Position numbers and translations under genes: made by a program
Part shown: in pieces, positions 3 through 21,117 of the stretch
How positions within the stretch are numbered: position 1 is the first letter of the stretch
Layout of the letters: each line of letters opens with the position of its first letter
Notes under the pieces: generated by a model
What the model was told of the DNA's origin: nothing
The model's database searches: none
Seen by the model: only the letters and a program-made list of their open reading frames with translations
IMG/VR virus record: IMGVR_UViG_3300017728_000101
Span: 1 to 25,122 of that record
Direction: 5' to 3' (one strand)
DNA: 25,122 bases
Origin: a virus

Positions 3-2351
3 AGAGCCGCGGCTAAAAATTTATACACATCAAATACAAAATATAATAATAAAAGTGTTAGAGATCTTATAACACGATGGGCACCTCCGGGTGACGGGAA
101 CAATACACCAGCATATGTAGACAAAGTTGCTAAAGACCTTGGAGTTGATCCAGATGCTGATTTAGGTAATCTAGAATCAAATCCAGCTCTTACAAAAAAG
201 TTACTAAAGTCAATGACAGAAGTGGAAGGTAGAAATAATAAGTTCACTGATCAAATGATTGACAGCGGTGTAGCAATGGCAAACGGAAAAGATCCAAAAG
301 ACGTTGATTTTGCCAAGTTAGAAACCGATGGCGAAACACTTGTATACAAAGATAAAATTATTAAAGATGCAGAAGTAGCCAAAGCTGAAGATGCGGCACT
401 GAAAAAGAAAGCATTAAAAGCTGGTGCTAGAGCAAAGCAAAAAAACTTATTTAACTTATCAACAGAAAACTGGTTAAGTACAGTTGATAGTCCTACATAC
501 AGATGGACTTTTTATATTACTAATAGTAAAATATTTAATGATCCAAGTTTATTAGAAGGATCAGATACAGCGGCTATTAACAATAACAATGCAAAGATAA
601 TAGCACAGACAGGTGTTACTACTGAGTTTGCAATGGATAACTTTGCTATGATACAAAGAGTGGTACCAGGAATGGAACATGGTAATACTACTCCAGGTGT
701 TATACAATTTGATCTTATGGAGCCATTGGGATTTACTTTTTTAGATAGAATTTTAAAAGTTGGAAAGTCTCTAGGAAATCCATATAGCTTACCATCACAA
801 CATTATGTATTAAAATTAGAATTCTTAGGCAGAGATTTTGAAACAGGTGGTAGTGTAAAATATCCTAATGCATTTTTCTATCCTATAAAAATAAATCAAG
901 TAAGAAGTCAAACAGGACCAGAAGGAACTAGATACAATATTATTGCATTTAGTATGATTAAACAAGCACAGGTAGAATCAATTACAACCGTTGATTTGCT
1001 TATACCTAAAGTAAATACAGTTCAAGCATTTGCTGAAGGTTTAGTGACAGCATTTAATAAAGCTGAACTTAATAAGTTACATCCTAATGAAGTTAAGAAC
1101 GGAGTTAAACCGCCAAAAGAAATTGAAATTCTTTTTGATAAAACTAGTGACATATCTGGTATATTAGCTCAAGACACTAAATCAGGAGAACAAATTGGAG
1201 ACTTTAGTTTAAAATTAAAAGCGTGGGGTTCAACAGCTAACGCAGACAAAGGCGCTGGTATGGCTAATGCTATGGACGATGCAGATGTGAGAGAAGCATC
1301 AATTAATGCATCAACTGCATTAGGTCCAGAAATTAAAAAACAAATTGAACGTAACTGTCCAGCCTGGGCCGCATACGTTAAAAAAGTTAATGAAGAAACA
1401 GGAATAACTCTTAGTATAATTGTTGACCTAGATATAAAATTTGGAATAAGAGATGAAAAAACAGGCCAACTTGAACATAAAAAAATTACATTTAAAATTG
1501 GTATATACACAGATAGCACTGGTGCAAGTATGAATAAAAAGAAAGATATAGAAAGATTACAGAACCAAGCATTTCAAAAACAAAGATTAAAAAACTTATC
1601 TATATGTAAATCGTATAGTTACTTGTATTCAGGAATGAATACCGAGGTACTAAACTATAGTCTTGACATAGAACAATTATATGTTACATCAAGAATTCCA
1701 TTAGATGGAGTATATCATTCAGAAGGTAGACAACAATACACCAGTTCAAACCCAACTAAAGCTACCAAGTACTTAGAAGATACTGATTACAATCCAATGA
1801 CTGACTATATTGATTTAGTTCAATATGTAGACAAACCATTAGGTGTTGAAGAGCAACAAAAAAACGAAAACGATAATAGTGATACGTTATATGCTCAAAG
1901 GCTTGGAGCTATAGCAATGAGAAGTGCTGATGCGATTAACTTTAACATTGAAATAAAAGGAGATCCATTTTGGCAAGGTAACACATTTAGAGCTCATGTA
2001 CAAGGAACAGATAAATCACCATTGCCGTCAACAGATTCTCTAATGATAACATTATTAAATTATAATCCCAATCCAGACGATTTATTAGAAAAACAAGTTA
2101 GAGGCCCAGTTGATTTAGTTTCAACTGGAGTATACAAGATAACTAGTATAGAAAGTAGATTTCAAAGTGGAAGGTTTACTCAAAATCTAATAGGATTTAA
2201 GGATCCACTAACTAATCCTGGATTAGTATTGAATCAATTAATACAAATAACAGATGGTAGTGCACCTGCACCAACAAGTGAAAACAAATATGTAGGCACA
2301 CCAATGAAAGAAAAAGCAGTAAACAGCACATTCTTTGATGGAGGAACATAA
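3..2351 (+). CDS. Baseplate hub protein, gp27-like, with N-terminal virion domain (5' end outside window)
   Basis: Partial gene. The frame is open from the first complete codon (base 3), so the ATG at 213 is internal and not the start. Bases about 3-235 encode a motif of the type RDLITRWAPP, then YVDKVAKDLGVDPDADL and an E-G-R-N end. I recognise this pattern from a widespread family of phage structural proteins whose exact role is unclear; it may help with cell-wall contact. After a charged Lys/Ala-rich linker (about 290-450) the remainder resembles gp27-type central hub proteins. Supporting motifs are a central IKGDPFWQG (about 1950-1976) and a terminal stretch GVYKITSIESRFQSG followed by FTQNL (about 2130-2190), typical of the last hub domain. 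The known role of gp27 is a trimeric ring joining tail tube and spike, which fits the spike gene directly downstream. The hub call is moderately sure; the upstream domain is certain as sequence but not as function. Confidence 0.72.
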   Translation, partial: RAAAKNLYTSNTKYNNKSVRDLITRWAPPGDGNNTPAYVDKVAKDLGVDPDADLGNLESNPALTKKLLKSMTEVEGRNNKFTDQMIDSGVAMANGKDPKDVDFAKLETDGETLVYKDKIIKDAEVAKAEDAALKKKALKAGARAKQKNLFNLSTENWLSTVDSPTYRWTFYITNSKIFNDPSLLEGSDTAAINNNNAKIIAQTGVTTEFAMDNFAMIQRVVPGMEHGNTTPGVIQFDLMEPLGFTFLDRILKVGKSLGNPYSLPSQHYVLKLEFLGRDFETGGSVKYPNAFFYPIKINQVRSQTGPEGTRYNIIAFSMIKQAQVESITTVDLLIPKVNTVQAFAEGLVTAFNKAELNKLHPNEVKNGVKPPKEIEILFDKTSDISGILAQDTKSGEQIGDFSLKLKAWGSTANADKGAGMANAMDDADVREASINASTALGPEIKKQIERNCPAWAAYVKKVNEETGITLSIIVDLDIKFGIRDEKTGQLEHKKITFKIGIYTDSTGASMNKKKDIERLQNQAFQKQRLKNLSICKSYSYLYSGMNTEVLNYSLDIEQLYVTSRIPLDGVYHSEGRQQYTSSNPTKATKYLEDTDYNPMTDYIDLVQYVDKPLGVEEQQKNENDNSDTLYAQRLGAIAMRSADAINFNIEIKGDPFWQGNTFRAHVQGTDKSPLPSTDSLMITLLNYNPNPDDLLEKQVRGPVDLVSTGVYKITSIESRFQSGRFTQNLIGFKDPLTNPGLVLNQLIQITDGSAPAPTSENKYVGTPMKEKAVNSTFFDGGT
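2340..2344 (+). promoter_or_regulatory. Shine-Dalgarno site of the spike gene
   Basis: GGAGG lies 8 bases before the ATG at 2353 and overlaps the end of the hub gene. It decides the start: the upstream in-frame TTG (2335) and ATG (2338) overlap or precede this site and cannot use it. Confidence 0.8.
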
Positions 2352-2352
2352 T

Positions 2353-3549
2353 ATGAGTTATAAACATGATGGAGTTAAAGTTAGTAATGATGTAAAAGCA
2401 AATACTGCTCTTAACATTAATAATTTAAGTGGACTATACATAGGTGAAGTTACAGAAAACAGTGACTCGTTATATACTGGCAGGATTAAAGTTAGAATAT
2501 CAGATTTTGGTTCCAAAGACACAGATAGAATTTGTTTACTATCAATACCCATGGGTGGGCATACACAAATTAAAGATAGTGGCGATGACGCAACCAAAGA
2601 AGCACAAGCTCCTGTAAGTTATGGATTTTGGCCACAGCCACCAGAAGTAGGAACAAATGTACTAGTTGCATATACAAGTAGTTTAGAACAAGGTATTGTA
2701 GTAGGAAGCCTTATAGCCAAAGATAGAAACTCTATGATGGGTGGAAATGCTAGTGGACAAATTTATGCTAACGGAGAAAAGAGTTTAGGTCCAGCAGTTG
2801 AAAAAAACCCATATGATCAAAATGATGCAGATACTAAACCAATGAATGAATGGTTTCAGGCAGTATTAAACGAACAAGGATTAAGTTTAGATTATACAAG
2901 AGGACATAGTCAGAGTAGTGCTAGAAGAGAAAGTCCAAGTAAAGTGTTTGGTATAACAACACGTGGTGGACACACTTTTACAATGGACGATGGAGACGAA
3001 AAAGGTAATAGTAAAAATATTAGATTAAGAACACATGGTGGTGCTCAAGTATTACTTGAAGACACTAAAGGTTTTATTTTTGTTACAACACAGAATGGCG
3101 ATGCTTGGATTGAAATGGATCAACAAGGTAGAGTTGATGTTTATAGCAAGGGTGGAGTAAGTGTTCACACAGAAGGCGACTATAATGTTCATGCTAAAGG
3201 CAGTATTAATATGCAGGCAGAAATGGGTGTTAATATAAAAAGCACAGGTGGTGATGGTTTAAAATTAGAAACAAGTGTTGGAAGTATTGATATCTATAGT
3301 GCAGTTGATTTAAATATACAAAGTGACGTAAATTATAATTTAACTGTAGCAGGTAACCAAATTATTAAAGGTGCAAGAATAGATATGAATGGACCAGAAC
3401 CTACACCAGCTACAAAAACAACAATACAAAATCAAACTCAAAACCAAAATGTTAAAGTTAGTGTTGCAAGTAGAGTTCCAGAGAAGCATCCATGGTTGGG
3501 TGTTGATAACCAAGAAACATTTGTTACAGGTAAAGGAAATACAGCATAA
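2353..3549 (+). CDS. 5: Baseplate spike, gp5-type (OB fold plus beta-helix, no lysozyme domain)
   Basis: This 398-aa protein matches the gp5/VgrG spike plan. Residues about 25-125 look like the OB-fold domain: YIGEV at the start, GRIKVRISDFG, then GFWPQPPEVGTNVLVAY and a GIVVGSL strand, the usual end of this domain. Residues about 204-345 are a run of short beta strands rich in G, D, V and T (RGGHTFTMDDG, IRLRTHGGAQVLLED, INMQAEMGVNIKS), typical of the triple-stranded beta-helix needle that pierces the outer membrane. T4 gp5 carries a lysozyme domain between these two parts. Here only about 75 residues of linker are present, with no GH24 motif. The start is chosen from the GGAGG at 2340-2344. 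The stop shares its last A with the next ATG. The tip is not the simple PAAR type as far as I can see. Confidence 0.85.
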   Translation: MSYKHDGVKVSNDVKANTALNINNLSGLYIGEVTENSDSLYTGRIKVRISDFGSKDTDRICLLSIPMGGHTQIKDSGDDATKEAQAPVSYGFWPQPPEVGTNVLVAYTSSLEQGIVVGSLIAKDRNSMMGGNASGQIYANGEKSLGPAVEKNPYDQNDADTKPMNEWFQAVLNEQGLSLDYTRGHSQSSARRESPSKVFGITTRGGHTFTMDDGDEKGNSKNIRLRTHGGAQVLLEDTKGFIFVTTQNGDAWIEMDQQGRVDVYSKGGVSVHTEGDYNVHAKGSINMQAEMGVNIKSTGGDGLKLETSVGSIDIYSAVDLNIQSDVNYNLTVAGNQIIKGARIDMNGPEPTPATKTTIQNQTQNQNVKVSVASRVPEKHPWLGVDNQETFVTGKGNTA

Positions 3550-4337: not shown

Positions 4338-4715
4338 ATGAGCGAGATTATAGGATATACAACAGTTGAACAGGCTTATACTAGCAAGGGACTTTCTGGT
4401 CTTGAACTAGCTAAACGTGACCTGTTAAACCATTTTCATATACGTAAAGGAGAGAAGTGGACCGACCCTACTTTTGGTTGTGACTTGCCTTTTTATGTAT
4501 TTGAACCATTAGATGATGATACTATTGAGTCTATACGCAATGAAGTATTTGCTGTAGTAAACTACGATCCTCGTTTTACAGTTAACGATACAAATGTTCG
4601 TGTAGTACAAGATGACCATTATGTTACAGTTAATGTAAATTTAACATACCTACCTACTACAACAGCAATAGATTTGCAAATTAAGTTCGATAGGGAACAG
4701 GACGCAGAGATTTAA
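4338..4715 (+). CDS. 25: Baseplate wedge protein gp25
   Basis: The 125-aa product is the size of the gpW/gp25 family. It has the family core: W41-T-D-P-T-F-G47, then F55-E-P-L-D-D with a helix I63-x-x-x-x-x-x-V70, then N75-Y-D-P-R79. The last motif corresponds to the E-P-R core motif of gp25, here with Asp for Glu. A C-terminal strand block VNVNLTYLP follows. In T4-like phages gp25 joins gp6 and gp53 in the inner wedge and helps start sheath assembly; gp6 is the next gene here, 1 base after the stop. The only Met in the frame is the first residue, and no purine-rich ribosome site precedes it, so the transcript from the late promoter at 4325 may be leaderless. Confidence 0.85.
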   Translation: MSEIIGYTTVEQAYTSKGLSGLELAKRDLLNHFHIRKGEKWTDPTFGCDLPFYVFEPLDDDTIESIRNEVFAVVNYDPRFTVNDTNVRVVQDDHYVTVNVNLTYLPTTTAIDLQIKFDREQDAEI

Positions 4716-7821: not shown

Positions 7822-10800
7822 ATGTCTAAAAAGAAAGCAGGCCCAAACAAGGTAAACAAAATTAAAACTAGTAACTTTTTACCTAATGTTTTTCAAACAG
7901 ACATTAATAAAAGTTGGTTAGATAGTACCCTTGACCAAATGGTTTCAAAAGGACCGCTAGGACAAGTTAATGGATACATAGGAAATAATAGTGGAAAGTA
8001 TTCAGTATCTACAGACAAATATATAACTCCTAGTGTTGATGCTACTATAAGAAACAAAACTCAACTAGCACCTGCTATAGTATCTTATAATAATAACCAA
8101 GACTTAACTAACAAAATTTCTTTTGATGATATAACATATGCAATAAATCAAAACTTTAATGCTTACAATTATAATGCGTCTTATTCATCAAGTAAATTTA
8201 CATTTAGTCCTCCAATTAATGTTGACAAATTTTTAAACTTTAAAAATTATAGATGGGTTGAAGAAATGCCTGTATACGAAAGTGTTTATACAGGAGCGAA
8301 CAAAGATCCTCTTATTGATATGTTGCGTGTGCCAGCATATAAACTAACTGACGATAATAATTCGTTTGTACTAGAAGTTGGCATGATTATAAAATTTAGT
8401 GGAACAGGATGGGATTCAACTGTAAAAGATAAAACTTATCTAGTAACTGCAAATAATCCAGAAACAAAATTAGAATTATATAAAGACTCAAATGGAGTTA
8501 AAGTTTACAATAGTTATAGTAAACTATCAAAAAGAAACTATGGTGTATGGGATACTGGTGAACCTGTAAGAGTTTCTCCAAATACTGCAAACAGTTATTG
8601 GGCTACTAGTAATCAATCGCCACAAGCATTAGTAGATGCTTATAATGCTGATACAAATAGACTTCCTTTGTTTGACGGATTTATTTTTGGAAACGAGGAT
8701 AGCAATCCTGCACAGTTTAAAGAAAATACTTTAATAAGATTTACTGCTGGTTGGGTTCACAATGGTCAAACTACAAACACAGAATCAATTTATATTACAC
8801 AAGTAGATGCATCAACAAAAGATGTTTCATTTAAAAAATTAGTTGATGCTACATTTAGTAATAATAAATGGACAGCAACAAATGTAGCAGGTATAACTGC
8901 TAACGAACTTGCTTTAATTAATTCACTAGATGGACACGATGAAGATAACGAAAAATGGGATCACCAGGCTCCACTAACACCAAACAAAGATTATATTGTT
9001 ATAGATAGAGGAGATGTATATCAAACTGCTTGGAGTAGAACAAATAGCTGGGTTAACTTTGCTACTATTAATAAAGTACAAGAGTTAATTCCAACACATG
9101 ATTTTACTGAAATACTAAATGAAAATAGAATTGCACAGAGACCAATTATAGAATACAATGAAGAATTAAATTTATGGAACTATGCAGAAAAATCATTGGT
9201 AGCAAATAAAGTAGGTAAAATTGACTATGGTGTAGTAAGTGGAGAAGATTTATCTGTTCTTCCAATTGATGCTACATATGTTTATATAGATAATAGTGAT
9301 ACTAAAGTTTATCAAAAAACAGCTTTGAACTTTGTTGCTATAAAAACTTTAGCAGATAATGATGTTATGCAAATTAACTCTGTAGCAAATCCTGCTTACG
9401 CAGATTGGAGATATGCAGATGTTTATTATAAAAATAATACAATTACATTAGGTCAACAAAAAACAAAAATTAATCAGTATCCATTATACAAATTTTATAA
9501 CTGTGAAGGTATTCCTTTAGAAGATATATACTCTACAGGATTTGCCGGTGAAAAGATTTTTGGATATAAAGTTGGAACAGGAACATTTGTTGATCCTGAA
9601 ATTAATCATGTATTAAGTTATAAAGATACACCTAAGGGTGCAGAGTATGAATTTGAAAATTTCTTACTAACTAAAAACTACAAAAAATCATATGACGATA
9701 CAGTACAAAATATAAGATATGCAAAACCATTAGCAGGTTATAATCATATTAAAAACTCAGGAAACTTAGAAACATTTTATAAACCATCAGGAACTTTAAC
9801 AGGCGCCAAAGAAACTAAACAGTATGAAATTACAATACCCGACACAGCATTAACTATACCAGTTGGTAAAAATAATTGGAGACCCGAAGAAGAATATAAT
9901 GTAATTGTTAAAGGTAATGTAACTGTATTAGCTAAATGCAACAACGATGGCACTTACAACGAGTCTGTTAAAAAGACTAGACATTTAGTTGGTGTAGAAC
10001 AAACATTTACATTAAATAATTTAACAGGAAAAACTATTACATTTCTAGCAGGACCAGTTGATATTGAGAATCCTGGAGGTAATGCAATACCAGATATGAC
10101 TATAACTAGAAGTGGTTCCAAAATTACAATAGTTACTGGATCAAACAGCGATGGTGATCACTTTACTATACTTGCAGACAATACTGAAATAGCATCTATG
10201 ACAATTTCAAAAGATTGGGATGAACTGTTTTACAATGTTAAAGTTAACGGTAATCCAGTTCCAACATCTTTGGTAAGTGCAAATGCTACTACTTTAGTTA
10301 TTGATCAAAGTTTATTTACTACAGGAGATTTAGTTGACTTTGTTTGGACAAATAATGATGCAAGTAATCCAACAACAAATATTAGTTTTCCAGAAACACT
10401 AGAACATAATGCCAATAACAAACGTATATATGAATTTACTATGAGTGAAACAATCGATCATTGGTTAGACAAACTTACAGTTAATCCAGGTTACTCTGGA
10501 ACTATGTTTGGTGATAATAATTATTCTAGCATTGTTCATACTCCATATTACGGAGGTACAATGTTTGTGCATCCAGACATTAGTATAATGCATGATATAA
10601 ATTACTCAGATAAAGATTTAAACATAACTGCAATATTAAATGAACAGGCTAATGATTGGTATGCATTTAGAAAAAGATTTTTAGCACAGGTTAAAAGATT
10701 ATATACTGTAGGATCAAATAATTCTAGTATAAAACTTTTAACTGAATCTGCTATTAAAGAAATTATTAGAAATAAAAAAGATTCAGAACTTTATAATAAT

Positions 10801-13800
10801 TCTAATATGGTATATCATAACACATATGATATTGAAACATTTACTATAACAGATACTACTGTAAAAGAATTTAAAACAAAATTTGATATACACGGTGATC
10901 AAAATATCAGAGATCATGTATATGTATATCTAACTGAAAACGATGGAAATAATAAACAAGTAGAAAGAATATTATTAAAAGACACAGATTATGATATAAT
11001 TGGTGATACTGTATATTTAAAACTTACATATGCGGCACTTGATAATGTTAACACTAATCCAATACTTAATGTAGTATACAACCAAATGGATAACAAATGT
11101 TATATTCCACCTAGTATGGTTAAACTTGGATTAGCTTATGGTATGCAACCACAAGTAGTTGGTTCAACCTTGTACACACACGATGGTGATACTTATACAC
11201 TAACTGGACAAATTACAGATGTAACTGGAGCTAACTTTGATCCTGTACACGCGGCATTGTTTGATTTAGAAAAAAGAATTTACGCAGGACTACCTGTACA
11301 AGATTTAATGTATAGAGATGATTATTGTATCAAAGACAAATATAAAAGTGCTACAGATTATATGCCAAGTCAACATATATCTACTTGGTATAAGTTAGCA
11401 GACATTGATAATTATTTAGAAAAGTTTTATCAAACTTGGGCTAATAAAAATGAAAAGACAAGTTTAAATATTGCGAACTATTATGATCAAACTGATCCAT
11501 TTACTTGGAATTACAGCTCATTAAGCATAGGTAATAAGTTTGGTACTAACAAACTACCAGGACATTATAAAGGTGCTTATATGACGGTATTTGGCACCTC
11601 TACACCACACTTAACACCGTGGCATATGTTAGGTTATTCATTTAAGCCTACTTGGTGGGATACCTACTTTAGTTGGACTGATGCTACAAAAAGAACTGCA
11701 TTACTTAATGCATTATCAAATGGTATTGTAAAACCACAAGCATCGCCAGATACAGAACAAGATATAAAATATGCAAGACGTTATTGGGACTTTACTAATA
11801 ATTGTCCTGTAGATACAAACGGTGATTTAGTAAATCCCGATACAGTACTAGGTGCTCCTACAGCTTCAGATGCCGCACAAGAATTTGTGTTTGGTGATTG
11901 GGGTCCTGTAGAAATAGAATGGCGTCAATCTGCATTAGGTCAGGCAATGACTGTTAATGCTATGTTAAAATTAAATCCTACTAGAGCATGGTCAGATTAT
12001 TTTCAACCTGGCAAGGTAAGAGATTACTATACATCATATACTAAAAGATATTTAAATAGTTCTTGTTTTACTATGCCTGGTGAAACTTATAAAACTATTA
12101 ACAGTATTAAGATATTAAGTAGTTCAGGATTAACTGATACAAACGAGTTTTACTTATTAGATAGCTACGATAGTGTTTTAGGTACTGCAAGATTTAAATC
12201 CACAGGTGGCAAAATTACTGCAACAAGTATGGTAGGTAGAGGAACACACTTTACAGGTGAACCTATACTTTCGTATAGTGATAGTATGAGCGGTGTAACA
12301 GTTAGTTACGAATTAGAATTAAAAGAAGTATCATATGTAGCTAACGGAATATCACAGGCTCAACATAATTACATTTTAAGAAAACAGTTAGATAAAAACT
12401 TTAAAGAGTTGTATAATAATCTAACAACAAAATTATTACAAAAACTTGAAGGGTATAGTAGTAAACATTTATTAAACATCTTTGGAGAAACTAGTTACTA
12501 TGGTGATTTTGAATTTGGCGATAGTGATTATAATATCTCAATGTATGAAGGTACAGCTAATGATTTTGTTAACGCATCTATAGTATTAATTACTAAAACT
12601 CCAGATGCATATACTGTAACTGGTGTAGCAGATAATAAAAGAGAATTTAAATTCTTTGAACCTAATATTAGCAATGGAACAGATTTTGAATTACAGACTA
12701 TTAACGGTGCTACGGTAAGAAGATATAATAAATTTGTAAGTACACCTAGCACATTAGAGTTTGGCAGTAAGGTTAGTAAGATACAAGATGTTTATAGTTT
12801 TGTTAGAGGTTACTGGAAATATTTAGAAAGCCAAGGATATAACCTACAGTTTGAAGGTGATCAAAACGCGGCTGACTTTGTTAATTGGACAAATACTGCT
12901 GAAGAAAATGATACTTATATATTACAGATAGGAAGAAGACTTACTTATACTCCTGAGTCAGGATCGGTTTATCCTTACAACGAATTAAGCTATAACAATA
13001 ATAGCATACTTGATATGTTCAGCAATAAGATTGAACAAACTGATTTAAGCATATCAAGAAAAGATGGAATAGTATCAGTTGAAACTAAAAACCAAAAACT
13101 TATTGGAAGTATTACTACCGCTAGTACGAACTTTGAACACGCATTGATATTTGAAAATACAACCGCATTAGGAGTCACTGTATATGATGACGTAAAAAAT
13201 AAAAGACAACATAGATTATTAGTTAGAGGTCAACTTACACAAGAATGGAATGGTGAAAAGAAAGCACCAGGTTATCTAGTGTTTGGTGATCATATTGTTG
13301 AAAACTTTGATAGTGCAGTACAAGCCGTTGACGATATTTACAGAACAGATGTAGATGAATTTAATAAGTCTATTACTAAATCAAAAGATTTAGCTATTGG
13401 TAATATAGATAAAGTTTGGTTAGATGGATTAGGACTGAATAAAAATACTATTACAAGATTTCACCAAGGTAGTATTAAACAACAAGGTACAAAAGGTGCA
13501 GTTGAAAGATTTGGAAGATCAACATTACTTGACGGTGGTAAAACAAGTTTATCAGTTTTTGAACAATATATGTTTAGACAGTCTACACTTGGTAATGATG
13601 ATTTACAAGAACCATTTGAAATGGAATTAGTATCAAATGATATTATAAACTTACCTTTAGCTATTGACCTAACTAGTGTTGATACAACAAAAATTATAAA
13701 TGATGTAGCAACAACATTTGAAACATTAAGTTATGATGATTCAAGTTCAGACATATTAACTGGTGGAGAAACATTAACAACAGAAACAAAATACCATATA

Positions 13801-16800
13801 GCAAATTTAACAAAAATGAAATATGTTTTTGATTCCACAGACTCATATGCAACAATACCAACATGGAATTCAACTACAAGTTATAAAAAAGATGACCTAG
13901 TAAGACACAACGGTCAACTATGGAAATGTAGTGTTAATTTTACAGGACTTACTGAACTGGCACCTAATATAACTGAAATAGGTACAGTGACTAACCCAGT
14001 ATTTCCTAGTGGAACAGTTGCAAACATTGCAGGTACTACGGTTACATTTAATGATACAGCAACAGAATATCAAGATATAGAAGCAGTAGGTACTGTAGTA
14101 AGTCCAACATTCTTACCAAGTGAGACATTAATTATTGATGGAGTAAGTATTGGATTTACTAAAACAGAAAACGTTACAATAGTTACAGGTAATGCAGTAA
14201 TAACAGGTAACGTTGCTAACCCAAGTATTAATGATGTAACGGGTAAGCAAATTACAATTAATGGTTCTATAGTTGACTTTGATACAACGCCAGCAGATGT
14301 TGTAGAAACAAAGTCAGCAACAAACCAAGCACCAGCAGATGCTACAGAAACAAATACAGCTACAGCATCACAAACAGATTTTACAGTTTCGGCCCAGTTA
14401 AGTCCAAGTACTTGGAGTGTTCTAAAAGTGGAAGTAGACAGTACACCAACTACAAACTATACCGTGGCAGGACAGGTTGTTACAATTAACAACCCAGCAA
14501 TGGTAGGTGGTGAGACAGTTGATATAACTGTAACTCACCAACCTATTATTCAAACAGCATATACAATAAATGAAACATTATCAAACACTACCTATAGTGT
14601 TGCTAGTGTAACAGTTGCAGGTGTAGTAACTTCTAATTGGACAGTTAATGGACAAGTGTTAACTCTTACGTCAGCACCATCATTGAATGATGCAGTAGTA
14701 ATAACACTAACCCACGTACCAGACAATATGAATACTGCACAGATAGTAGCTCAAATTAACAATGCAGGAATTACTGGAGTAACAGCTGGTTTAGTTGCTA
14801 ATTCTGGATTCCTTCAAATTATATTTACTACAACAGATCCTACAGCAACATTAACGTTAGCATCAGGTTCAAGTAATACAGATTTAGGATTTCTTGCAGG
14901 TGGAAGTGTAGTTGCACCTCCTACAGAAATTGGACAGCAATCAACTCCATTGAATTTATCAGAAATAGTTCAGCAAATTAATAATACAACAAATTTATCT
15001 AATGTAGTTGCATCAGCTGATTCAAATAGATTAAAATTAACAAGTACAAACATTACATTATCAGTAACTGGTTCTGCACAAACTATACTAGGATTAAGTA
15101 CAGCATATACTGCTACAACAGTTACAGCACCAATTGATACTACAATGAATTCAGCTATTACGCAAATTCAAAATGCGTTAACTTCAGCAAGTAATACTGA
15201 AGTAACAATTACAGCAGATGCAAACAGAATCAAAATAGTATCAGAAGGAACTTCATTATTACTTGGTGATACTACTTTTAATTCAATAGCAGGTATTAAT
15301 ACAGGAACATTGAACGCCGCATCAGGAACAATTCAAAATACGTTTGATATAAATGACTTTGGTGGAGTACCAGTTGATTCAAGTTTAGACCCAGCAACAT
15401 TTAATATACTAGTCACTGATGATAGTGAATATGAAAATGCTTCAGTTGAAAGTATTAACACAAAATTCTTTGGGTACAATATATTCCAAGTAACACAGAA
15501 CAATGTTCCATTATACTCAGAAAGTACAGACGGAACACATTGTGGAATTTGTGCAGGTACAGCAACATCAGATGGTAACGATGCAGAAGTAACAACAAAT
15601 ACCGATCATGGATTACAAGTTGGAGACTTTGTTATGTTATTGAATACAACCACTACTCCTAATATAGATGGAATACATAAAGTTACAAAATTAGGAAGTG
15701 GAACTAACTCGGGTAGAATTTTTTATATAGACGAATTTATTAAAGAGTGTGGGAATGCAGTTTCTGTTATGCCATTAGTAACTACTAGGTTTGCAACAAC
15801 GGCTCAGAGAGATTCAGCACTAACAAAAACACATTGGAATTTACCAACAGGAACAATAGTTGTAGCAAGTAGAGATACTAACAATGTACGTGGAACATAT
15901 GTTTCAAGTACGTCACTTATTGGTACAGGTCTAAATGAAGTAAGACAGACAATAGCAAGACCAACCAATACAGATATTGATAGTATTATTATATACAATC
16001 ATAAATCAAATCAAACAAAGGTACAGCTAGAAGCATTTGACCCAATGAGAAAAGTTATACCTGGTATAGCTGAACAAAATTTAGATTATAGTAATGTAAA
16101 TGATAATGCAATTTATAATACAACAACAGATGAAAATCGTTTCACTGACAATGATAATGCTTGGGGCAGTGAACAAGTAGGTACTAGATGGTGGGATACA
16201 AGTCAAGTTCGTTACTTTGATTATGATCAAGGTGATAACTCATATAGAAAAGATATGTGGGGTAAACTATTTCCAGGTAGTGAAATTGTAGTTTGGGAAT
16301 GGATTAAGTCTACAGTAGCACCAGATGATTACGCAGAGAGTGTTGAGCAACAAAAAGAAATGTTTGGTGTTCCTGCTACCGGCGAAGCATATATAATATA
16401 TGATACTGTAGCTAAAGAGACAAACTATTACTATACACAAGAACAAGAGTATAATGTTAGCACAGGTAACTATGATGATGTATATTATTTTTGGGTTAAA
16501 AATAAAACTACTATAAATGATACAAGAACTTTATCAGCATTTGATGTTGCTAATATTATTGAAAACCCATCAGCGAATGGAATAAGTTGGTTTGCAGTAT
16601 TAGATAACAATACATTTATTATTGACAATGTTAGTTTTTATGTAGAAGATACAAGTACAGTATTACAAATTAATAAGGCAGGAGACAAGTTTAAATCTCA
16701 CAACGAGTGGACGTTGATAACAAAAGACTTAGATACTATTCCAGAATATTATGTTGAAGGTATGAAATATAATTTATCAGGATGGGATAAAGATTCTAGT

Positions 16801-18309
16801 AAAATTCCATTTACAGCTTTACATAAATTTAATAAGTACGGAGATGATTTAGACTCTGGACAAACTTGGTTTAATAATTTAATTACTGCTAGACGTAATG
16901 CAATTATAACAATTAATGATTTATTAACTACTGTTAATCTGTATGATGAGTATAGAGATAGTTGGAACAAAACACTAGTTGCAAATAATTTTCCAAGATA
17001 CTTGTGGAAGTGGAAAGACTATAAATTAGAAACATACTTAGGTAATTTAAATTATACAGCTACAGTTACATCAAGTGATCAACTTGAAACTACAATAGAT
17101 AAAACATTAGATAAGGTAGTTCAGTTACCAATATATGATACAGATTTAAAACTTGACAGAAGTGAAATTTATTACTACAATGAAGACAAATGGATTCTAG
17201 TACACAAGAAAAATAGTACAGTTGAATTTGATGTAGATTTATTATGCCCAACAGGTGGATATGATAATGTTCCTTTTGACTCAAGAGGTTGGGACCATGC
17301 TAACGTAGCTGGGTTCTGGCAAACTCTTATTGAAGCATTAAAGAAAGACATATTTGTACAATATCATAAATTAAAGATGAATAAGTTATTCTTTAGTATA
17401 ATTGATTACACATTAAGTTCGTTTGCACAAACAAACTGGATTAGAAAAACAACATATGTCAAAGTTGAAATAGATAGTCAAATTGATACTACTTCAAGAG
17501 CTTATAAAAAAGATAATTTAGTTAATGCGTTAGGTTACATACAAGATATTAAACCGTTCCATACAAAGATAAGTACAGTCAAAACTAATTATAAAGTTAT
17601 TGATGAAGCTACTTTAACAGTAACGGAAACACCTAAACACGTAATTACAATGAACACACAAGATTTTACTCCAACATTTAATGGAACTACATATGTTGGA
17701 GCAGATAGCACAGACATAGTAACAGGTGGAGACTTTACTAGTACTCCAGCAGATACTATTGAAGCTATAAACTTCTTATCACCATATAACTTTAATGTCA
17801 ATGAAGGTGAGAAGCGAAATAGTTTTGTAAACATAAACCCACTTGAATTGTTGCGTATTAATGTTCAAACAAATCAAACAGGAAATACAACAGCAAATAG
17901 TTCAAGAACGTTTACACATATACAAGATGCGGCAGGCAATGTAAAAGCATATGCCTTACTTGAATCTAGAAAATCTACACTAACTTCTGCAATAGATGAA
18001 GATAGTACAGATTTATCACTAGCAAGTACAACCGCATTTGATGACACAGGACTTGTGTATATTGGTGGAGAGATAATTGAATATGCTAAAACCGATGCTA
18101 CTACATTGAAAATAATGAAAAGAGCAGTAGGACAGACATTTATAGTATCAGCAGATACAGGAGATGCTGTAGTTCAAATATCAAACTATCAACTTACATT
18201 TGCTAATGATACTGTAAGTTATAATCAAACAGGCGGTTCATTATTGAGTACACCTGTATCAGAACCTGCACAAGAGTTGCAAGATTTTGGTAGAGGTATA
18301 GAGTTATAG
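7822..18309 (+). CDS. Giant modular virion protein (3495 aa), in the gp7 position
   Basis: One unbroken frame of 10.5 kb directly after gene 6, where T4 has gene 7 (about 1030 aa). Parts I recognise from giant myovirus structural proteins: NFLPNVFQTDINKSWLD (18-34); a W-S-R-T-N-S-W block then AQRPIIEYN (about 400-450); PHLTPWHMLGYSFKPTWW (about 1261-1280); WGPVEIEWRQSALG (about 1360); WLDGLGL to GRSTLL (about 1864-1903); AWGSEQVGTRWWDTSQVRYF with KLFPGSEIVVWEW (2780-2830); and YIQDIKPFHTKIS (about 3240). Inserted is a beta/repeat region: a W2015-x5-Y-K-K-D-D-x-V-x-H-N-G-x-x-W sugar-binding-like motif, three short repeats (2054-2165), two tandem beta repeats (2182-2298) and three flagellin-hook-IN-like repeats (2303-2500). 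CGIC (2574-2577) precedes an HGLQVGD beta domain (2588-2637). The C-terminus has a TDLSLAS-TAFDDTGLVYIGGEIIEYA module (3387-3455). I infer an outer wedge or arm protein with adhesive insertions. Gp7 equivalence is positional only. Confidence 0.7.
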   Translation: MSKKKAGPNKVNKIKTSNFLPNVFQTDINKSWLDSTLDQMVSKGPLGQVNGYIGNNSGKYSVSTDKYITPSVDATIRNKTQLAPAIVSYNNNQDLTNKISFDDITYAINQNFNAYNYNASYSSSKFTFSPPINVDKFLNFKNYRWVEEMPVYESVYTGANKDPLIDMLRVPAYKLTDDNNSFVLEVGMIIKFSGTGWDSTVKDKTYLVTANNPETKLELYKDSNGVKVYNSYSKLSKRNYGVWDTGEPVRVSPNTANSYWATSNQSPQALVDAYNADTNRLPLFDGFIFGNEDSNPAQFKENTLIRFTAGWVHNGQTTNTESIYITQVDASTKDVSFKKLVDATFSNNKWTATNVAGITANELALINSLDGHDEDNEKWDHQAPLTPNKDYIVIDRGDVYQTAWSRTNSWVNFATINKVQELIPTHDFTEILNENRIAQRPIIEYNEELNLWNYAEKSLVANKVGKIDYGVVSGEDLSVLPIDATYVYIDNSDTKVYQKTALNFVAIKTLADNDVMQINSVANPAYADWRYADVYYKNNTITLGQQKTKINQYPLYKFYNCEGIPLEDIYSTGFAGEKIFGYKVGTGTFVDPEINHVLSYKDTPKGAEYEFENFLLTKNYKKSYDDTVQNIRYAKPLAGYNHIKNSGNLETFYKPSGTLTGAKETKQYEITIPDTALTIPVGKNNWRPEEEYNVIVKGNVTVLAKCNNDGTYNESVKKTRHLVGVEQTFTLNNLTGKTITFLAGPVDIENPGGNAIPDMTITRSGSKITIVTGSNSDGDHFTILADNTEIASMTISKDWDELFYNVKVNGNPVPTSLVSANATTLVIDQSLFTTGDLVDFVWTNNDASNPTTNISFPETLEHNANNKRIYEFTMSETIDHWLDKLTVNPGYSGTMFGDNNYSSIVHTPYYGGTMFVHPDISIMHDINYSDKDLNITAILNEQANDWYAFRKRFLAQVKRLYTVGSNNSSIKLLTESAIKEIIRNKKDSELYNNSNMVYHNTYDIETFTITDTTVKEFKTKFDIHGDQNIRDHVYVYLTENDGNNKQVERILLKDTDYDIIGDTVYLKLTYAALDNVNTNPILNVVYNQMDNKCYIPPSMVKLGLAYGMQPQVVGSTLYTHDGDTYTLTGQITDVTGANFDPVHAALFDLEKRIYAGLPVQDLMYRDDYCIKDKYKSATDYMPSQHISTWYKLADIDNYLEKFYQTWANKNEKTSLNIANYYDQTDPFTWNYSSLSIGNKFGTNKLPGHYKGAYMTVFGTSTPHLTPWHMLGYSFKPTWWDTYFSWTDATKRTALLNALSNGIVKPQASPDTEQDIKYARRYWDFTNNCPVDTNGDLVNPDTVLGAPTASDAAQEFVFGDWGPVEIEWRQSALGQAMTVNAMLKLNPTRAWSDYFQPGKVRDYYTSYTKRYLNSSCFTMPGETYKTINSIKILSSSGLTDTNEFYLLDSYDSVLGTARFKSTGGKITATSMVGRGTHFTGEPILSYSDSMSGVTVSYELELKEVSYVANGISQAQHNYILRKQLDKNFKELYNNLTTKLLQKLEGYSSKHLLNIFGETSYYGDFEFGDSDYNISMYEGTANDFVNASIVLITKTPDAYTVTGVADNKREFKFFEPNISNGTDFELQTINGATVRRYNKFVSTPSTLEFGSKVSKIQDVYSFVRGYWKYLESQGYNLQFEGDQNAADFVNWTNTAEENDTYILQIGRRLTYTPESGSVYPYNELSYNNNSILDMFSNKIEQTDLSISRKDGIVSVETKNQKLIGSITTASTNFEHALIFENTTALGVTVYDDVKNKRQHRLLVRGQLTQEWNGEKKAPGYLVFGDHIVENFDSAVQAVDDIYRTDVDEFNKSITKSKDLAIGNIDKVWLDGLGLNKNTITRFHQGSIKQQGTKGAVERFGRSTLLDGGKTSLSVFEQYMFRQSTLGNDDLQEPFEMELVSNDIINLPLAIDLTSVDTTKIINDVATTFETLSYDDSSSDILTGGETLTTETKYHIANLTKMKYVFDSTDSYATIPTWNSTTSYKKDDLVRHNGQLWKCSVNFTGLTELAPNITEIGTVTNPVFPSGTVANIAGTTVTFNDTATEYQDIEAVGTVVSPTFLPSETLIIDGVSIGFTKTENVTIVTGNAVITGNVANPSINDVTGKQITINGSIVDFDTTPADVVETKSATNQAPADATETNTATASQTDFTVSAQLSPSTWSVLKVEVDSTPTTNYTVAGQVVTINNPAMVGGETVDITVTHQPIIQTAYTINETLSNTTYSVASVTVAGVVTSNWTVNGQVLTLTSAPSLNDAVVITLTHVPDNMNTAQIVAQINNAGITGVTAGLVANSGFLQIIFTTTDPTATLTLASGSSNTDLGFLAGGSVVAPPTEIGQQSTPLNLSEIVQQINNTTNLSNVVASADSNRLKLTSTNITLSVTGSAQTILGLSTAYTATTVTAPIDTTMNSAITQIQNALTSASNTEVTITADANRIKIVSEGTSLLLGDTTFNSIAGINTGTLNAASGTIQNTFDINDFGGVPVDSSLDPATFNILVTDDSEYENASVESINTKFFGYNIFQVTQNNVPLYSESTDGTHCGICAGTATSDGNDAEVTTNTDHGLQVGDFVMLLNTTTTPNIDGIHKVTKLGSGTNSGRIFYIDEFIKECGNAVSVMPLVTTRFATTAQRDSALTKTHWNLPTGTIVVASRDTNNVRGTYVSSTSLIGTGLNEVRQTIARPTNTDIDSIIIYNHKSNQTKVQLEAFDPMRKVIPGIAEQNLDYSNVNDNAIYNTTTDENRFTDNDNAWGSEQVGTRWWDTSQVRYFDYDQGDNSYRKDMWGKLFPGSEIVVWEWIKSTVAPDDYAESVEQQKEMFGVPATGEAYIIYDTVAKETNYYYTQEQEYNVSTGNYDDVYYFWVKNKTTINDTRTLSAFDVANIIENPSANGISWFAVLDNNTFIIDNVSFYVEDTSTVLQINKAGDKFKSHNEWTLITKDLDTIPEYYVEGMKYNLSGWDKDSSKIPFTALHKFNKYGDDLDSGQTWFNNLITARRNAIITINDLLTTVNLYDEYRDSWNKTLVANNFPRYLWKWKDYKLETYLGNLNYTATVTSSDQLETTIDKTLDKVVQLPIYDTDLKLDRSEIYYYNEDKWILVHKKNSTVEFDVDLLCPTGGYDNVPFDSRGWDHANVAGFWQTLIEALKKDIFVQYHKLKMNKLFFSIIDYTLSSFAQTNWIRKTTYVKVEIDSQIDTTSRAYKKDNLVNALGYIQDIKPFHTKISTVKTNYKVIDEATLTVTETPKHVITMNTQDFTPTFNGTTYVGADSTDIVTGGDFTSTPADTIEAINFLSPYNFNVNEGEKRNSFVNINPLELLRINVQTNQTGNTTANSSRTFTHIQDAAGNVKAYALLESRKSTLTSAIDEDSTDLSLASTTAFDDTGLVYIGGEIIEYAKTDATTLKIMKRAVGQTFIVSADTGDAVVQISNYQLTFANDTVSYNQTGGSLLSTPVSEPAQELQDFGRGIEL
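13864..13950 (+). other. CBM5/12-like sugar-binding motif in the giant protein
   Basis: Residues 2015-2043 read W-N-S-T-T-S-Y-K-K-D-D-L-V-R-H-N-G-Q-L-W-K, the spacing of aromatic residues and the D-x-V strand seen in small chitin/cellulose-binding (ChtBD3-type) modules. The usual Gly-Asp is Asp-Asp. It marks the start of the repeat region and could bind a surface glycan. Confidence 0.45.
13981..14320 (+). repeat. Three diverged short beta repeats in the giant protein
   Basis: Units begin at 13981, 14089 and 14206 (residues 2054, 2090, 2129), spaced 36 and 39 residues. Each reads G-x-V-x-x-P-x-F or similar, then a strand ending in I-x-G-x-x-V-x-F: GTVTNPVFPSG, GTVVSPTFLPS and GNVANPSINDV. The DNA has diverged, so the duplication is old or under selection for variety. 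Confidence 0.6.
14365..14715 (+). repeat. Two tandem beta-domain repeats in the giant protein
   Basis: Residues about 2182-2298 hold two units of about 58 residues. Unit 1 runs from SQTDFTVSAQLSPSTW to VDITVTHQP. Unit 2 runs from IQTAYTINETLSNTTYS to AVVITLTHVP. Both share x-T-x-x-x-T-V-x-G-Q-V-x-T-x-x-x-x-P and the closing T-H-x-P, typical of small Ig-like phage decoration domains. Confidence 0.65.
14728..15320 (+). repeat. Three flagellin-hook-IN-like repeats in the giant protein
   Basis: Units start at residues about 2303 (MNTAQIVAQINN), 2378 (LNLSEIVQQINN) and 2442 (MNSAITQIQNAL). Each continues with a V-x-A-x-x-x-x-x-x-L/I-x-I strand, a T-rich strand, and a G-L/I-x-x-G or L-G-L-S ending. 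The pattern I-x-x-x-I-N then A-D-x-N-R-L/I-K-L/I is that of the IN motif known from bacterial hook-filament proteins. Units are about 60-75 residues and diverged. Confidence 0.55.
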
Positions 18310-18352: not shown

Positions 18353-18958
18353 ATGAAAACATTAAACGATAAATCACATCTAGGAGTTGAAGGTCACGTT
18401 GTAATTAGAGACGCTGATTCCCAAGAAGTGCTACTAAACAAGTACAATGCAATTAACTTTGAGAACTTTGCATTGGCTGTAGCAAATTCTATGGCTAATC
18501 AGACTACTAATAGCAATAATCATTTTATTGCAAAATTGGCATTTGGTTATGGTGGTACTACCATTGATGCTAACGGCAACGTTACATACAAAGACCCTAA
18601 AGTTTCTGGATCAACTGGTGGATTATATTCACCAAGCCCGGCAACGATAGGAGCCAATGCTACAACAACACCACTACAAGTATCTGTAACCGAATTTACA
18701 GTAAACAATGCTAAGAATCAACCATACACAGACTTAGAATGTAAAGTTGTATTAGATTACAACCAACCGGACGCAAGTGGTCCAGCATTAGACAACGCAT
18801 CAGATTTTGATGACGCTGATAGTTTTGTGTTTGACGAGATAGCACTAATTACTGACAACGGCGAGTTTTTAACACACTTAATTTTTCATCCTATCCAAAA
18901 AAGTAACAACAGAAAATTAGAGGTACTATACACTCTAAGAATTAGAGCAGGAGTTTAA
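18353..18958 (+). CDS. Virion structural protein (201 aa), conserved in T4-like marine phages
   Basis: I recognise the pattern but not a T4 gene name. The N-terminus has GHVVIRDADSQEVLLNKYNAINFENF, followed by a helix of Ala, Val and Asn. The middle is G/T/N-rich loops with FGYGG (about 67-71). The C-terminus closes with a FVFDEIALIT strand, a G-x-F-L-T-H-L-I-F-H-P-I-Q-K block and VLYTLRIRAG. Proteins with the same 'F-D-E-x-x-L ... T-H-x-I-F-H-P-V-Q-K' end occur among phage baseplate and fibre genes. It follows the giant gene after 43 bases with its own late promoter and an AAGGA site 7-11 bases upstream, and is followed by the fibre gene after 2 bases. T4 gp8 would sit near here but is longer (about 334 aa); equivalence is not shown. 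Confidence 0.6.
   Translation: MKTLNDKSHLGVEGHVVIRDADSQEVLLNKYNAINFENFALAVANSMANQTTNSNNHFIAKLAFGYGGTTIDANGNVTYKDPKVSGSTGGLYSPSPATIGANATTTPLQVSVTEFTVNNAKNQPYTDLECKVVLDYNQPDASGPALDNASDFDDADSFVFDEIALITDNGEFLTHLIFHPIQKSNNRKLEVLYTLRIRAGV
18949..18953 (+). promoter_or_regulatory. Shine-Dalgarno site of the fibre gene
   Basis: AGGAG lies 7 bases before the ATG at 18961, inside the last codons of the preceding gene. It fixes the start of the fibre protein. Confidence 0.7.
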
Positions 18959-18960
18959 AT

Positions 18961-19923
18961 ATGGCATATACAATTGATAGATATAACAACACTACTTACG
19001 GTGGTGCGGCTGATATCAGTGTAGCAGACAATACATTGAATGAGACAACCAATTTAAAACTCGTTGGTAAAGATTGGGTAGGCTATGGACAAACTATTGC
19101 ACAGAACTCTGTTAGCTTGTTAGAAAATTTTGCAAGTGAAACAGAACCTACTAAACCAACTGAGGGTCAACTTTGGTGGAACCCAGAAACAAAAATCTTA
19201 AGTGTGCGAAGCACAAATAAGTGGCTGGGTATGGATGCTGGTAGTAGTTTTGCTACTATTAAGGCAACAGACAACACAGACAAGAATGTGTTTATTACTA
19301 GATCAAATGGAGTAGTAGTTTCGATTACAAGCTCATATGAAGATTTTATAATTAACACTAGTGAAACAGTAATTGAACCTTTATTCAGAGATAATGGTAA
19401 TCCATCAGTTGCTGGACCGGCAACAATCAAAGCTGGTATTAATATGACAACCGATGCATCAAACGTAAACAAGACTTACTTGTTTCGTGGAACTGCTACA
19501 CACGCACAATACGCTGACGTTGCAGAGATGTATACAGCAGACAAAGAACACGAGCCTGGAACAGTAATTATGTTCAGTGACGATTCAGTTGAAGGACACA
19601 AAGGTGAAGAAGTTTGCGAAACGTTACACGAAAAAGATCCAAAGATGCTTGGTGTAGTTACTACTAACCCAGCATTACTAATGAACTCAAATATTGAAAC
19701 GCCAGAAGGTTTATCTACTATAGCTGTTGCGTTACTTGGAAGAGTTCCTTGTAAGGTTACTGGTATAGTTAACAAAGGTGATAGACTTGTATCAAGTAAT
19801 GTACCTGGTCATGCTATGGCAGGTAAAGATGATATTAGATGGACACACGTTGTTGGCAGAGCTTTAGAAAAGAAAAATACTGAAGGCGAAGGTGTTATAG
19901 AAGTTATAGTTGGGGTAAAGTAA
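18961..19923 (+). CDS. Tail-fibre or baseplate appendage protein with conserved C-terminal domain
   Basis: The 320-aa product has the two ends typical of fibre-like proteins of T4-like marine phages. The N-terminal part has K37-D-W-V-G-Y-G-Q-T-I-A-Q-N-S-V-S-L-L-E-N-F (to 57), then P-T-E-G-Q-L-W-W-N-P-E-T-K (66-78), a motif repeated in many phage fibres. The C-terminal domain begins HAQYADVAEMY (181-191), then EPGTVIMFSDD, LGVVTTNPALLMN, VALLGRVPCKVTGIVNKGDRLV and GHAMAG, ending in VGRAL...GEGVIEVIV. This domain is shared by many long fibres and resembles, at a distance, auto-processing or chaperone tips of other fibres. I see no sure catalytic residues. It probably trimerises and binds the host or decorates the baseplate. 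It starts 2 bases after the previous stop; the next gene follows with no gap. Confidence 0.7.
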   Translation: MAYTIDRYNNTTYGGAADISVADNTLNETTNLKLVGKDWVGYGQTIAQNSVSLLENFASETEPTKPTEGQLWWNPETKILSVRSTNKWLGMDAGSSFATIKATDNTDKNVFITRSNGVVVSITSSYEDFIINTSETVIEPLFRDNGNPSVAGPATIKAGINMTTDASNVNKTYLFRGTATHAQYADVAEMYTADKEHEPGTVIMFSDDSVEGHKGEEVCETLHEKDPKMLGVVTTNPALLMNSNIETPEGLSTIAVALLGRVPCKVTGIVNKGDRLVSSNVPGHAMAGKDDIRWTHVVGRALEKKNTEGEGVIEVIVGVK

Positions 19924-21039
19924 ATGCTAAATAGGCCCGCTACAGTATACACAGGCGAGAAAATAAAAGCTTCTCACTTAAATGATCTTATTACATATTA
20001 TAATGAGATCTGGAATGGCGGCACCTATACCTTTGACGTAAACCATAATACAAAAAATGACAACAGAAGATTTGGATGGGGTCAATCTAGTGCTACAATA
20101 ACACCAGCAGTTCAAGCAGGTAAAATTATTGAAGCAAACGATATGAACCAAGCTATTGTACAAGTCAATGCTGGACAATATCATATTAGTGATGACCCTA
20201 CTAGATTGCTATCAAAACTAGCGGCAGGTCATACAGATCCTGTTTCACCTGTACTATATAATGCAGTAGTTGACAAAGTTGCAACATTTGAAACTGATAA
20301 GTTTAAAGTTGACTGGTCAGACATGACATTAGATGTTTTATCAACAACAAATACTACAGCTTGGAATCAAGACTTGTATTGCGTACATAAATTTGAATTT
20401 AATAATTATAACGAAGCTAGACACTTTTTTAATGCAGGTGGAGAGTTAAGTATTGAATTAAGTATGCAATCTGGAGGAACAGCTGGTAACGATACTTGGA
20501 GACAAATATTTGAACAGTTTGATAGTATAAGAATTGGAGCTGAGGGTTGTAAGTTAGTACAAGACGATGCTGATCCTAAAGATATATTATCAACAAGTAC
20601 ACTAGCACCAATGGGATTCTATAATGGAATAACCAACGATGGTGCTTGGAATACAATATTAGATGCTGGTGTGTTTAGGTACGCAAACGGCGACTATGCG
20701 TATGCATATGCGTATGTTTATGTGTATGGCGAATACAACAGTAGAAGAATAAGACTACAATTAAAAGGCGAAGAAGTTGGTGGCAAGTTTAATGTTTATA
20801 TTAAAGTTATTCTAGTAGAAGATGAAGATGATACTTTTGCTATAACACAACCAGTAACATTAACTTCTGGATATTCTGTTCCAGCAACAACACCAAATCC
20901 ATCAGATGGTAACGCCTCATACTTTACTATAGGTTCTAACTTATATCAATTCCTAGCTAGAAATGCACCAACAATTACATTAAGTGAAGCTTGGACTACC
21001 GTAGATGTTGCAAGTGGACCACAATATCCCACTCCATAA
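19924..21039 (+). CDS. Putative virion structural protein, fibre-associated (371 aa)
   Basis: Not assigned to a T4 gene. The N-terminal third is helical: K-I-K-A-S-H-L-N-D-L-I-T-Y-Y-N-E-I-W (about 13-30), a FGWGQ turn, and K-I-I-E-A-N-D-M-N-Q-A-I-V-Q-V-N (about 62-77), the 'I-x-A-x-D-x-N-x-L' pattern of phage fibre shafts and assembly segments. The rest is beta-rich, with N-E-A-R-H-F-F-N-A-G-G-E-L-S-I-E-L-S, a block I have seen in phage virion proteins. Residues 258-269 are YAYAYAYVYVYG, encoded by a near-perfect hexamer repeat (20695-20730). The start follows the previous stop directly (TAAATG), so coupling is likely. It is the last gene before the promoter-bearing gap at 21040. Confidence 0.55.
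   Translation: MLNRPATVYTGEKIKASHLNDLITYYNEIWNGGTYTFDVNHNTKNDNRRFGWGQSSATITPAVQAGKIIEANDMNQAIVQVNAGQYHISDDPTRLLSKLAAGHTDPVSPVLYNAVVDKVATFETDKFKVDWSDMTLDVLSTTNTTAWNQDLYCVHKFEFNNYNEARHFFNAGGELSIELSMQSGGTAGNDTWRQIFEQFDSIRIGAEGCKLVQDDADPKDILSTSTLAPMGFYNGITNDGAWNTILDAGVFRYANGDYAYAYAYVYVYGEYNSRRIRLQLKGEEVGGKFNVYIKVILVEDEDDTFAITQPVTLTSGYSVPATTPNPSDGNASYFTIGSNLYQFLARNAPTITLSEAWTTVDVASGPQYPTP
20695..20730 (+). repeat. Tandem TATGCN-type hexamer repeat in coding DNA
   Basis: Six consecutive codon pairs start with TAT: tatgcg, tatgca, tatgcg, tatgtt, tatgtg, tatggc. They encode alternating Tyr and small residues, so one face of a beta strand would be all Tyr. Such repeats can change length by slippage. 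Confidence 0.8.
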
Positions 21040-21046
21040 TTAACCA

Positions 21047-21075
21047 TTGACACAAGTCGATAAATACTTTATAAT
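21047..21075 (+). promoter_or_regulatory. Perfect sigma-70 consensus promoter
   Basis: TTGACA at 21047-21052, a 17-base spacer (21053-21069), then TATAAT at 21070-21075. Both hexamers and the spacing are the exact bacterial housekeeping consensus. The predicted +1 is near 21082, 36 bases before the ATG at 21118. It should be read by unmodified host RNA polymerase, suggesting early expression of the block that follows. Confidence 0.75.
21059..21067 (+). promoter_or_regulatory. T4-type late promoter motif inside the sigma-70 spacer
   Basis: GATAAATAC shares the ATAAATA core of the motifs at 4325 and 18327. It lies between the -35 and -10 boxes of the sigma-70 promoter. Its predicted +1 is near 21072. 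The same gene block could thus be read both early and late. Confidence 0.6.
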
Positions 21076-21085
21076 ATACGTATAT
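21074..21085 (+). promoter_or_regulatory. 12-bp palindrome at the promoter start site
   Basis: ATATACGTATAT is a perfect palindrome that overlaps the end of the -10 box and the predicted +1. A dimeric repressor or other regulator could bind it. In A+T-rich DNA such palindromes also arise by chance. Confidence 0.35.
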
Positions 21086-21100
21086 AATTATATTACGAAT

Positions 21101-21107
21101 AAAGGAG
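21101..21107 (+). promoter_or_regulatory. Strong Shine-Dalgarno site of the 115-aa gene
   Basis: AAAGGAG lies 10 bases before the ATG at 21118. It is one of the strongest ribosome sites in the window and fits a gene at the head of its own transcript. Confidence 0.75.
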
Positions 21108-21117
21108 TATACCCTGT

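Follow-up and report, generated by a model that had tools for sequence, protein, structure and literature searches.

The window analysed here, a virus record of 25,122 nucleotides (IMG/VR record IMGVR_UViG_3300017728_000101) and thus only part of a phage genome, raises the question of what a 3495-residue protein does in the place that gp7 occupies after gp6 in T4. This giant is the largest protein of the baseplate region in its group, the Rak2-like jumbo phages, and the records consulted label it only as "hypothetical" or "structural protein". A preliminary description of the DNA, made from the sequence alone, had placed the protein in the gp7 position and suggested a wedge scaffold that has absorbed receptor-binding modules, making one baseplate arm carry several adhesin types. 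The features of the locus are collected in Table 1.

Table 1. Features of the baseplate locus and of the giant protein (coordinates in the window).
Feature	Coordinates	Strand	Remarks
Baseplate hub/spike	2335..3549	+	gp5-like OB domain; PHROG 13211
Lysozyme-like ORF	3549-4277		Between the gp5-like hub gene and gp25
gp25-like sheath initiator/wedge subunit	4338..4715	+	PF04965
gp6-like baseplate wedge subunit, 1033 aa	4717..7818	+	PHROG 10646 / 219; directly upstream of the giant
Giant gene, 3495 aa	7822..18309	+	PHROG 10938, "virion structural protein"; gp7 position
Conserved N-terminal block, residues 1-250	7822..8571	+	
Conserved block, residues 381-640	8962..9741	+	
Main conserved core, residues 801-1990	10222..13791	+	
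Tail_P2_I (P2 gpI / XM1 gp17)-like stretch, residues 1849-1924	13366..13593	+	Profile-profile match
Variable insert, residues about 2000-2560	13819..15501	+	High dN/dS, low occupancy
CBM_5_12 module, residues 2014-2039	13861..13938	+	PF02839, profile positions 1-26 of 44
Two tandem 55-aa beta repeats, residues 2184-2239 and 2244-2298	14371..14715	+	
Conserved C-terminal block, residues 2721-3270	15982..17631	+	Helix-turn-helix and family motif inside
C-terminal tail	17632..18306	+	Lineage specific
201-aa protein	18353..18958	+	PHROG 11259; downstream of the giant

The giant ORF begins with ATG three nucleotides past the stop codon of the gp6-like gene, has an AGGA upstream of its start and contains no internal stop, so the unbroken 10.5-kb frame straight after gene 6 that had been noted earlier is intact. 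Its unusual length might suggest an assembly artefact in which several genes have been fused, an explanation that we rejected as virtually impossible. The same full-length frame is found in independent contigs (L002 and L004, 100% identity; L005, 87%; L026, 77%), cultured phages encode proteins of similar length, and dN/dS was 0.10-0.45 in all segments in comparisons with L005 and L026. Because the frame recurs in independent contigs and is constrained throughout, the giant is a real gene; it is a single functional gene under purifying selection and not an assembly fusion.

The protein matched the PHROG 10938 profile in four stretches (E 2.4e-178), with blocks of the family running along most of its length. 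All ten annotated jumbo-phage genomes that we compared encode a protein of 3138-4555 amino acids after gp6, namely RAS14 (3138), XacN1 (3313), Kaldavass (3339), CBB (3340), Munch (3342), Vibrio phage 2.275.O (3771), SCTP-2 (3807), PA5oct (3857), Atu_ph07 (4449) and Phosso (4555). The giant adjoins gp6 in every one of them, and gp25 is adjacent in nine, the exception being SCTP-2, where gp25 lies elsewhere; RsoM2USA ORF361 (2541 aa) also adjoins gp6 (PMC8504454). A scan of IMG/VR yielded at least 565 relatives, and the complete giants among the 80 IMG/VR relatives that were kept and the named phages span 2798 to 5187 amino acids. A gp6-sized ORF ends no more than 282 nt upstream in 68 of the 77 viral contigs that contain the 5' end of the giant gene, and several relatives also encode a protein of some 200 aa close to its 3' side. 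The order gp25-gp6-giant claimed for the window is as described, with gp25 before gp6 and gp6 immediately upstream.

Homologues of the giant are present in virions. PA5oct gp355 was detected by virion mass spectrometry, as were phAPEC6 gp245 (381.9 kDa, 17 peptides), which adjoins the wedge protein gp244 (PMC7247149), and CBB_236 (21 peptides; PMC5259590). The window giant is no singleton: it is one unexceptional member of a widespread family of jumbo-phage giant structural proteins, and its location in the baseplate wedge is well supported. The named Rak2-like members (PA5oct gp355, CBB gp236, Atu_ph07 gp180, SCTP-2 gp140, Munch 262 and phAPEC6 gp245) have in common with it the PHROG 10938 family, the place after gp6 and the conserved blocks; they differ in that overall identity is 20-27% in a 12-protein alignment and that its insert and C-terminal tail are not common to these phages. 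None of the named giants has an experimentally assigned role past that of a structural protein. SCTP-2 is unusual in two further respects: its gp6-position protein (L009 27272-36562) is itself 3096 aa long, and the wedge cluster is split, with gp25 at a distance of about 80 kb (record position 230923).

A query-anchored alignment of 89 members showed conservation at residues ~1-250, 381-640, 800-2000 and 2600-3270 (2640-3270 by narrower limits). Conserved blocks are thus found in both the N-terminal and the C-terminal parts, in agreement with the giant-phage structural motifs that had been recognized near both ends; the C-terminal block contains a helix-turn-helix at ~3159-3200 and the family motif VKPYHTKIR, which reads IKPFHTKIS in the window giant. 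Across most of 800-2000, column occupancy among the 89 relatives was at least ~0.9, as opposed to ~0.33 for the insert at ~2010-2560. Similarly, when segments were searched by BLASTP against 95 giants, core segments matched 79-89 of them, whereas residues 2061-2550 matched 28 and residues 3271-3495 matched 24. The C-terminal tail after about residue 3230 varies from 58 to 1522 aa among relatives. Residues 2545-2680 (window 15454-15861) carry another family motif, ITxxxxHxLxVGDYV, and show weak matches to End_beta_barrel (E 0.046) and tail protein gp15 (10lj, E 0.035), together with a fold likeness to phage endosialidase/depolymerase structures at E > 0.05 that was not localised to a region; this stretch is possibly another glycan-associated beta barrel.

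If the giant occupies the gp7 slot, it might be expected to resemble T4 gp7. The likeness to T4 gp7 or gp8 that had been considered did not materialize: profile-profile comparisons of all giant blocks with T4 gp7, gp6, gp8, gp9, gp10, gp11 and gp12 gave nothing, the Gp7 Pfam domains are absent from the giant, and Gp7_helical found no support in any of the ten related genomes. As a positive control, the gp6 family of the window found T4 gp6 (score 44, P 2e-4). The failure to match T4 gp7 argues only weakly against orthology, because the method also misses the accepted relation between gp7 and gpI; a profile of T4 gp7 640-780 matched neither gpI nor the gpI-like block of the giant. T4 gp7 is itself distant from the minimal gp7 proteins. 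T4 gp7, the 1032-aa wedge initiator, is therefore like the giant in gene order after gp6 and in proposed role, and unlike it in sequence, profile, domains and PDB fold matches.

A connection to gp7 is suggested instead by the Tail_P2_I family (PF09684), to which P2 gpI and XM1 gp17 belong, the gp7 orthologues of simple phages. The cryo-EM study of XM1 describes (gp16)2-gp17 as homologous to T4 (gp6)2-gp7 and places the tail spikes on regions 80-106 and 201-242 of gp17 (PMC10457771). A 79-member Tail_P2_I profile matched the giant over ~35 columns (residues 1888-1924) through a KGT...EEW...G signature, with a score of 30.7 (P 4-7e-4), although 40 shuffles of one block reached 27.7. Only this one region of the giant scores, the next window reaching 19.1 and the highest of 113 decoy windows 23.0, and a five-sequence Tail_P2_I profile gave a score of 27 at the same place. 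The landmarks in the window giant are QGT at 1888-1890 (KGT in the family), EQY at 1914-1916 (EEW in the family) and G1924, and across the giants conservation is 99% for G1889, 91% for T1890, 81% for E1914, 99% for W/Y1916 and 99% for G1924. The match of PF09684 itself to the giant stayed below the Pfam threshold. P2 gpI and XM1 gp17 may be like the giant in this signature and are like it in being encoded after a gp6/J homologue; they differ in size (about 180-270 aa versus 3495 aa) and in their N-terminal core-bundle hairpin, which was not identified in the giant. When the gp6 N-terminal core-bundle hairpin was compared with residues 3163-3241, shuffles scored as high. A separate Tail_P2_I protein was not found in the ten jumbo genomes, each of which has one gp25, although absence by these models is no proof; nor did the ten related genomes yield any gp7 candidate besides the giant.

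On these comparisons, a relation of the giant to gpI and gp7 is supported but not proven, and we infer that the giant may be the gp7 orthologue, an assignment that we did not find in the literature. The gp7 role put forward earlier thus retains the slot after gp6, a weak but specific Tail_P2_I match at 1888-1924 and the lack of another candidate, and loses T4 gp7 similarity. It is also conceivable, albeit rather unlikely in our estimation, that the giant has no relation to gp7 and is a jumbo-specific protein of the baseplate periphery, working as an arm or a platform for fibres much as T4 gp10 or gp9 do, while the true gp7 has diverged too far to be recognised or is absent. Such a protein would account for the missing T4 gp7 similarity and PDB fold match, for strong BFVD matches confined to jumbo-phage giants or uncharacterised phage proteins, and for a gpI match that is short and sub-threshold; it sits poorly with a gp6-adjacent slot that is fixed across the group, with ten genomes that offer no other Tail_P2_I or gp7 candidate, and with the strong conservation of the sole gpI-like stretch found in the giant.

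Structure prediction gave mixed alpha/beta, multi-domain AF2 models for residues 1040-2065 (mean pLDDT 75, pTM 0.59) and 2545-3495 (pLDDT 76, pTM 0.35). Foldseek searches of both models against the PDB returned no match at E<=1e-3 and no solved baseplate protein, and PDB sequence and fold searches together gave no baseplate match that stands up. In BFVD, the 1040-2065 model has strong matches to the structural protein of Atu_ph07 and to uncharacterised proteins from uncultured phages, among others. For the stretch 1849-1930 model confidence was low (pLDDT about 55), which would fit a segment that needs gp6 in order to fold.

The great length of the protein and the beta repeats in its insert would also suit a tail fibre or a tape-measure protein, a reading that we consider very improbable and rejected on the strength of the profile searches. 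None of the 350-aa segments of the giant matched a tail fibre or tape-measure family at a meaningful E-value, a result that bears directly on the preliminary description, which would have fallen with such a hit. In addition, the AF2 models lack a long coiled-coil architecture, the family, synteny and virion data point elsewhere, and profiles of the tape-measure/endolysin type are matched by a different ORF, the one at 3-2351.

The region between the main core and the C-terminal block varies widely in length among the giants: the spacer delimited by conserved positions 1935 and 2715 measures 779 aa in the window giant and ranges from 137 (XacN1) to 1558 aa (Atu_ph07). Spacer lengths obtained for a few relatives at the 1400-1500 site were chaining errors and were set aside. 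A repeat and sugar-binding-like block had been proposed at about 2010-2640, and the insert indeed contains a CBM5/12 match and a tandem repeat; the likeness to flagellin IN was not borne out, as Pfam searches of the giant gave no Flagellin_IN match even at E<=10. CBM_5_12 scored 29.0 bits on the segment, against a Pfam cut-off of 26.2, and 24.5 bits, just below it, in the whole protein. The 55-aa tandem repeat scored 100 versus a shuffled maximum of 54. dN/dS was raised in residues 2061-2550 (0.29 and 0.45, among the highest in the giant), compared with 0.14 and 0.12 in the CBM segment.

Other giants carry other modules. Pfam searches identified FG-GAP propellers in L071, L086 and L093, the last of which also has CBM5/12; in L031 and L036 CBM5/12 stayed below threshold, and L031 additionally gave a weak match to CBM_X2. 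A regular-expression scan for the CBM motif gave 34 hits in 32 giants versus 1.75 expected in shuffled proteins, a count that includes false hits in the gp6 fragments L042, L050 and L058, in L087, in Vib2275 and at the C terminus of L088. Most of the CBM-like modules occupy one of two alternative sites, at query position 2015 in the group of the window phage or between 1825 and 1826 in a second group, and a few lie in the C-terminal tail. The second group comprises L062, L065, L066, L068, L069, L077, L080, L088, L095, L102 and L104. The two sites flank the KGT-EEW stretch, one on each side, in different phage lineages; likewise, the receptor-binding elements of XM1 gp17 attach on both sides of the signature. 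The insert is modular and its modules are exchanged among relatives. The 1551-aa insert of Phosso (L015 9735-14387) is apparently rich in glycine-rich NPGxGYxxxPxVxxxGxGxGA units unlike the window repeats. In Vibrio phage 2.275.O the gp6-position protein (L017 15903-19766) is annotated with CBM5/12, so sugar-binding-type modules enter the neighbouring wedge gene too.

The insert may act as an adhesin that binds sugar. The idea that a single baseplate arm carries several adhesin types goes beyond what the window giant shows, which has one recognised binding module; across the family, one scaffold bears CBM5/12, FG-GAP propellers or CBM_X2-like modules. What survives of the proposed wedge scaffold with absorbed receptor-binding modules is the position after gp25-gp6, the conserved scaffold and the CBM insert; the proposal is largely sensible, with T4 gp7, T4 gp8 and flagellin IN unsuitable as standards of comparison. 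Phage structural proteins often carry CBM5/12-like modules, and the giant could be a gp7-type wedge subunit in which the insert is a mere structural spacer or fibre-docking platform and the module is a generic beta unit that binds no sugar. We regard this as a reading to be taken seriously, if still somewhat doubtful. It gains from the coverage of only 26 of the 44 profile positions and from the stronger conservation of the module (dN/dS 0.12-0.14) relative to the repeats that follow (0.29-0.45), and it leaves the recurrent, site-shifting gain of carbohydrate-binding or propeller modules to be explained. Binding has a precedent, moreover: Gp119 of phage Vp4, which has CBM folds and belongs to the wedge, binds bacterial cells (PMC11406892). 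Like the giant, this Herelleviridae protein is a wedge protein with carbohydrate-binding modules; it differs in phage family, in being another wedge protein (BW3) and in having a CBM16-like and a xylanase-type module.

We marginally favor the explanation that in Rak2-like jumbo phages the giant serves as a wedge subunit of the gp7 type that has grown by taking up exchangeable surface-binding modules. Its assignment to the gp7 slot is based on its position, the KGT-EEW stretch and the lack of another candidate. The giant would then take the place of T4 gp7 or P2 gpI, with one copy per wedge beside two copies of gp6 and with gp25 as its cap. The conserved parts of the giant would build a rigid wedge arm, the Tail_P2_I-like stretch at ~1849-1924 would be the part joining gp6, and lineage-specific surface modules would be plugged into tolerant sites, chiefly at ~1825 before that stretch, at ~2000-2560 after it and in the C-terminal tail. 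In the window phage, one CBM5/12 module and the beta repeats at the site after the core may make reversible contact with host-surface polysaccharide, and force or occupancy could be transmitted by way of the wedge to gp25 and on to the sheath. A more specific version, which we think has a limited chance of being right, is that the giants are gp7/gpI orthologues with a Tail_P2_I core of ~100 residues buried mid-protein and flanked by two hot-spots that exchange adhesin modules, as at the XM1 gp17 spike sites; if so, the wedge itself would be a modular receptor-binding organ, beyond a holder for separate fibres.

The giant family was already known; the gpI-like signature and the module-exchange sites are new. 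We found no high-resolution baseplate of a Rak2-like jumbo phage in the literature. Assigning the giant to the gp7 slot yields a baseplate model for these phages that can be tested. Should adhesins be exchanged at the insert sites, these would be the places at which the phages alter their contact with the host and need no new fibre genes to do so.

Several neighbouring ORFs also have recognizable features. At the left end of the window, the ORF at 3-2351 is truncated by the window edge; its first 100 residues match tape-measure, endolysin and tail-injection transglycosylase families, and what follows them matches a structural family. On the other side of the giant, seven tandem ORFs of 115-371 aa, most without any family, occupy 18961-25121. 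The first of these (320 aa) shows a weak likeness to tail-fibre-type families and possibly contains a Peptidase_G2-like autocleavage domain (E 0.003).
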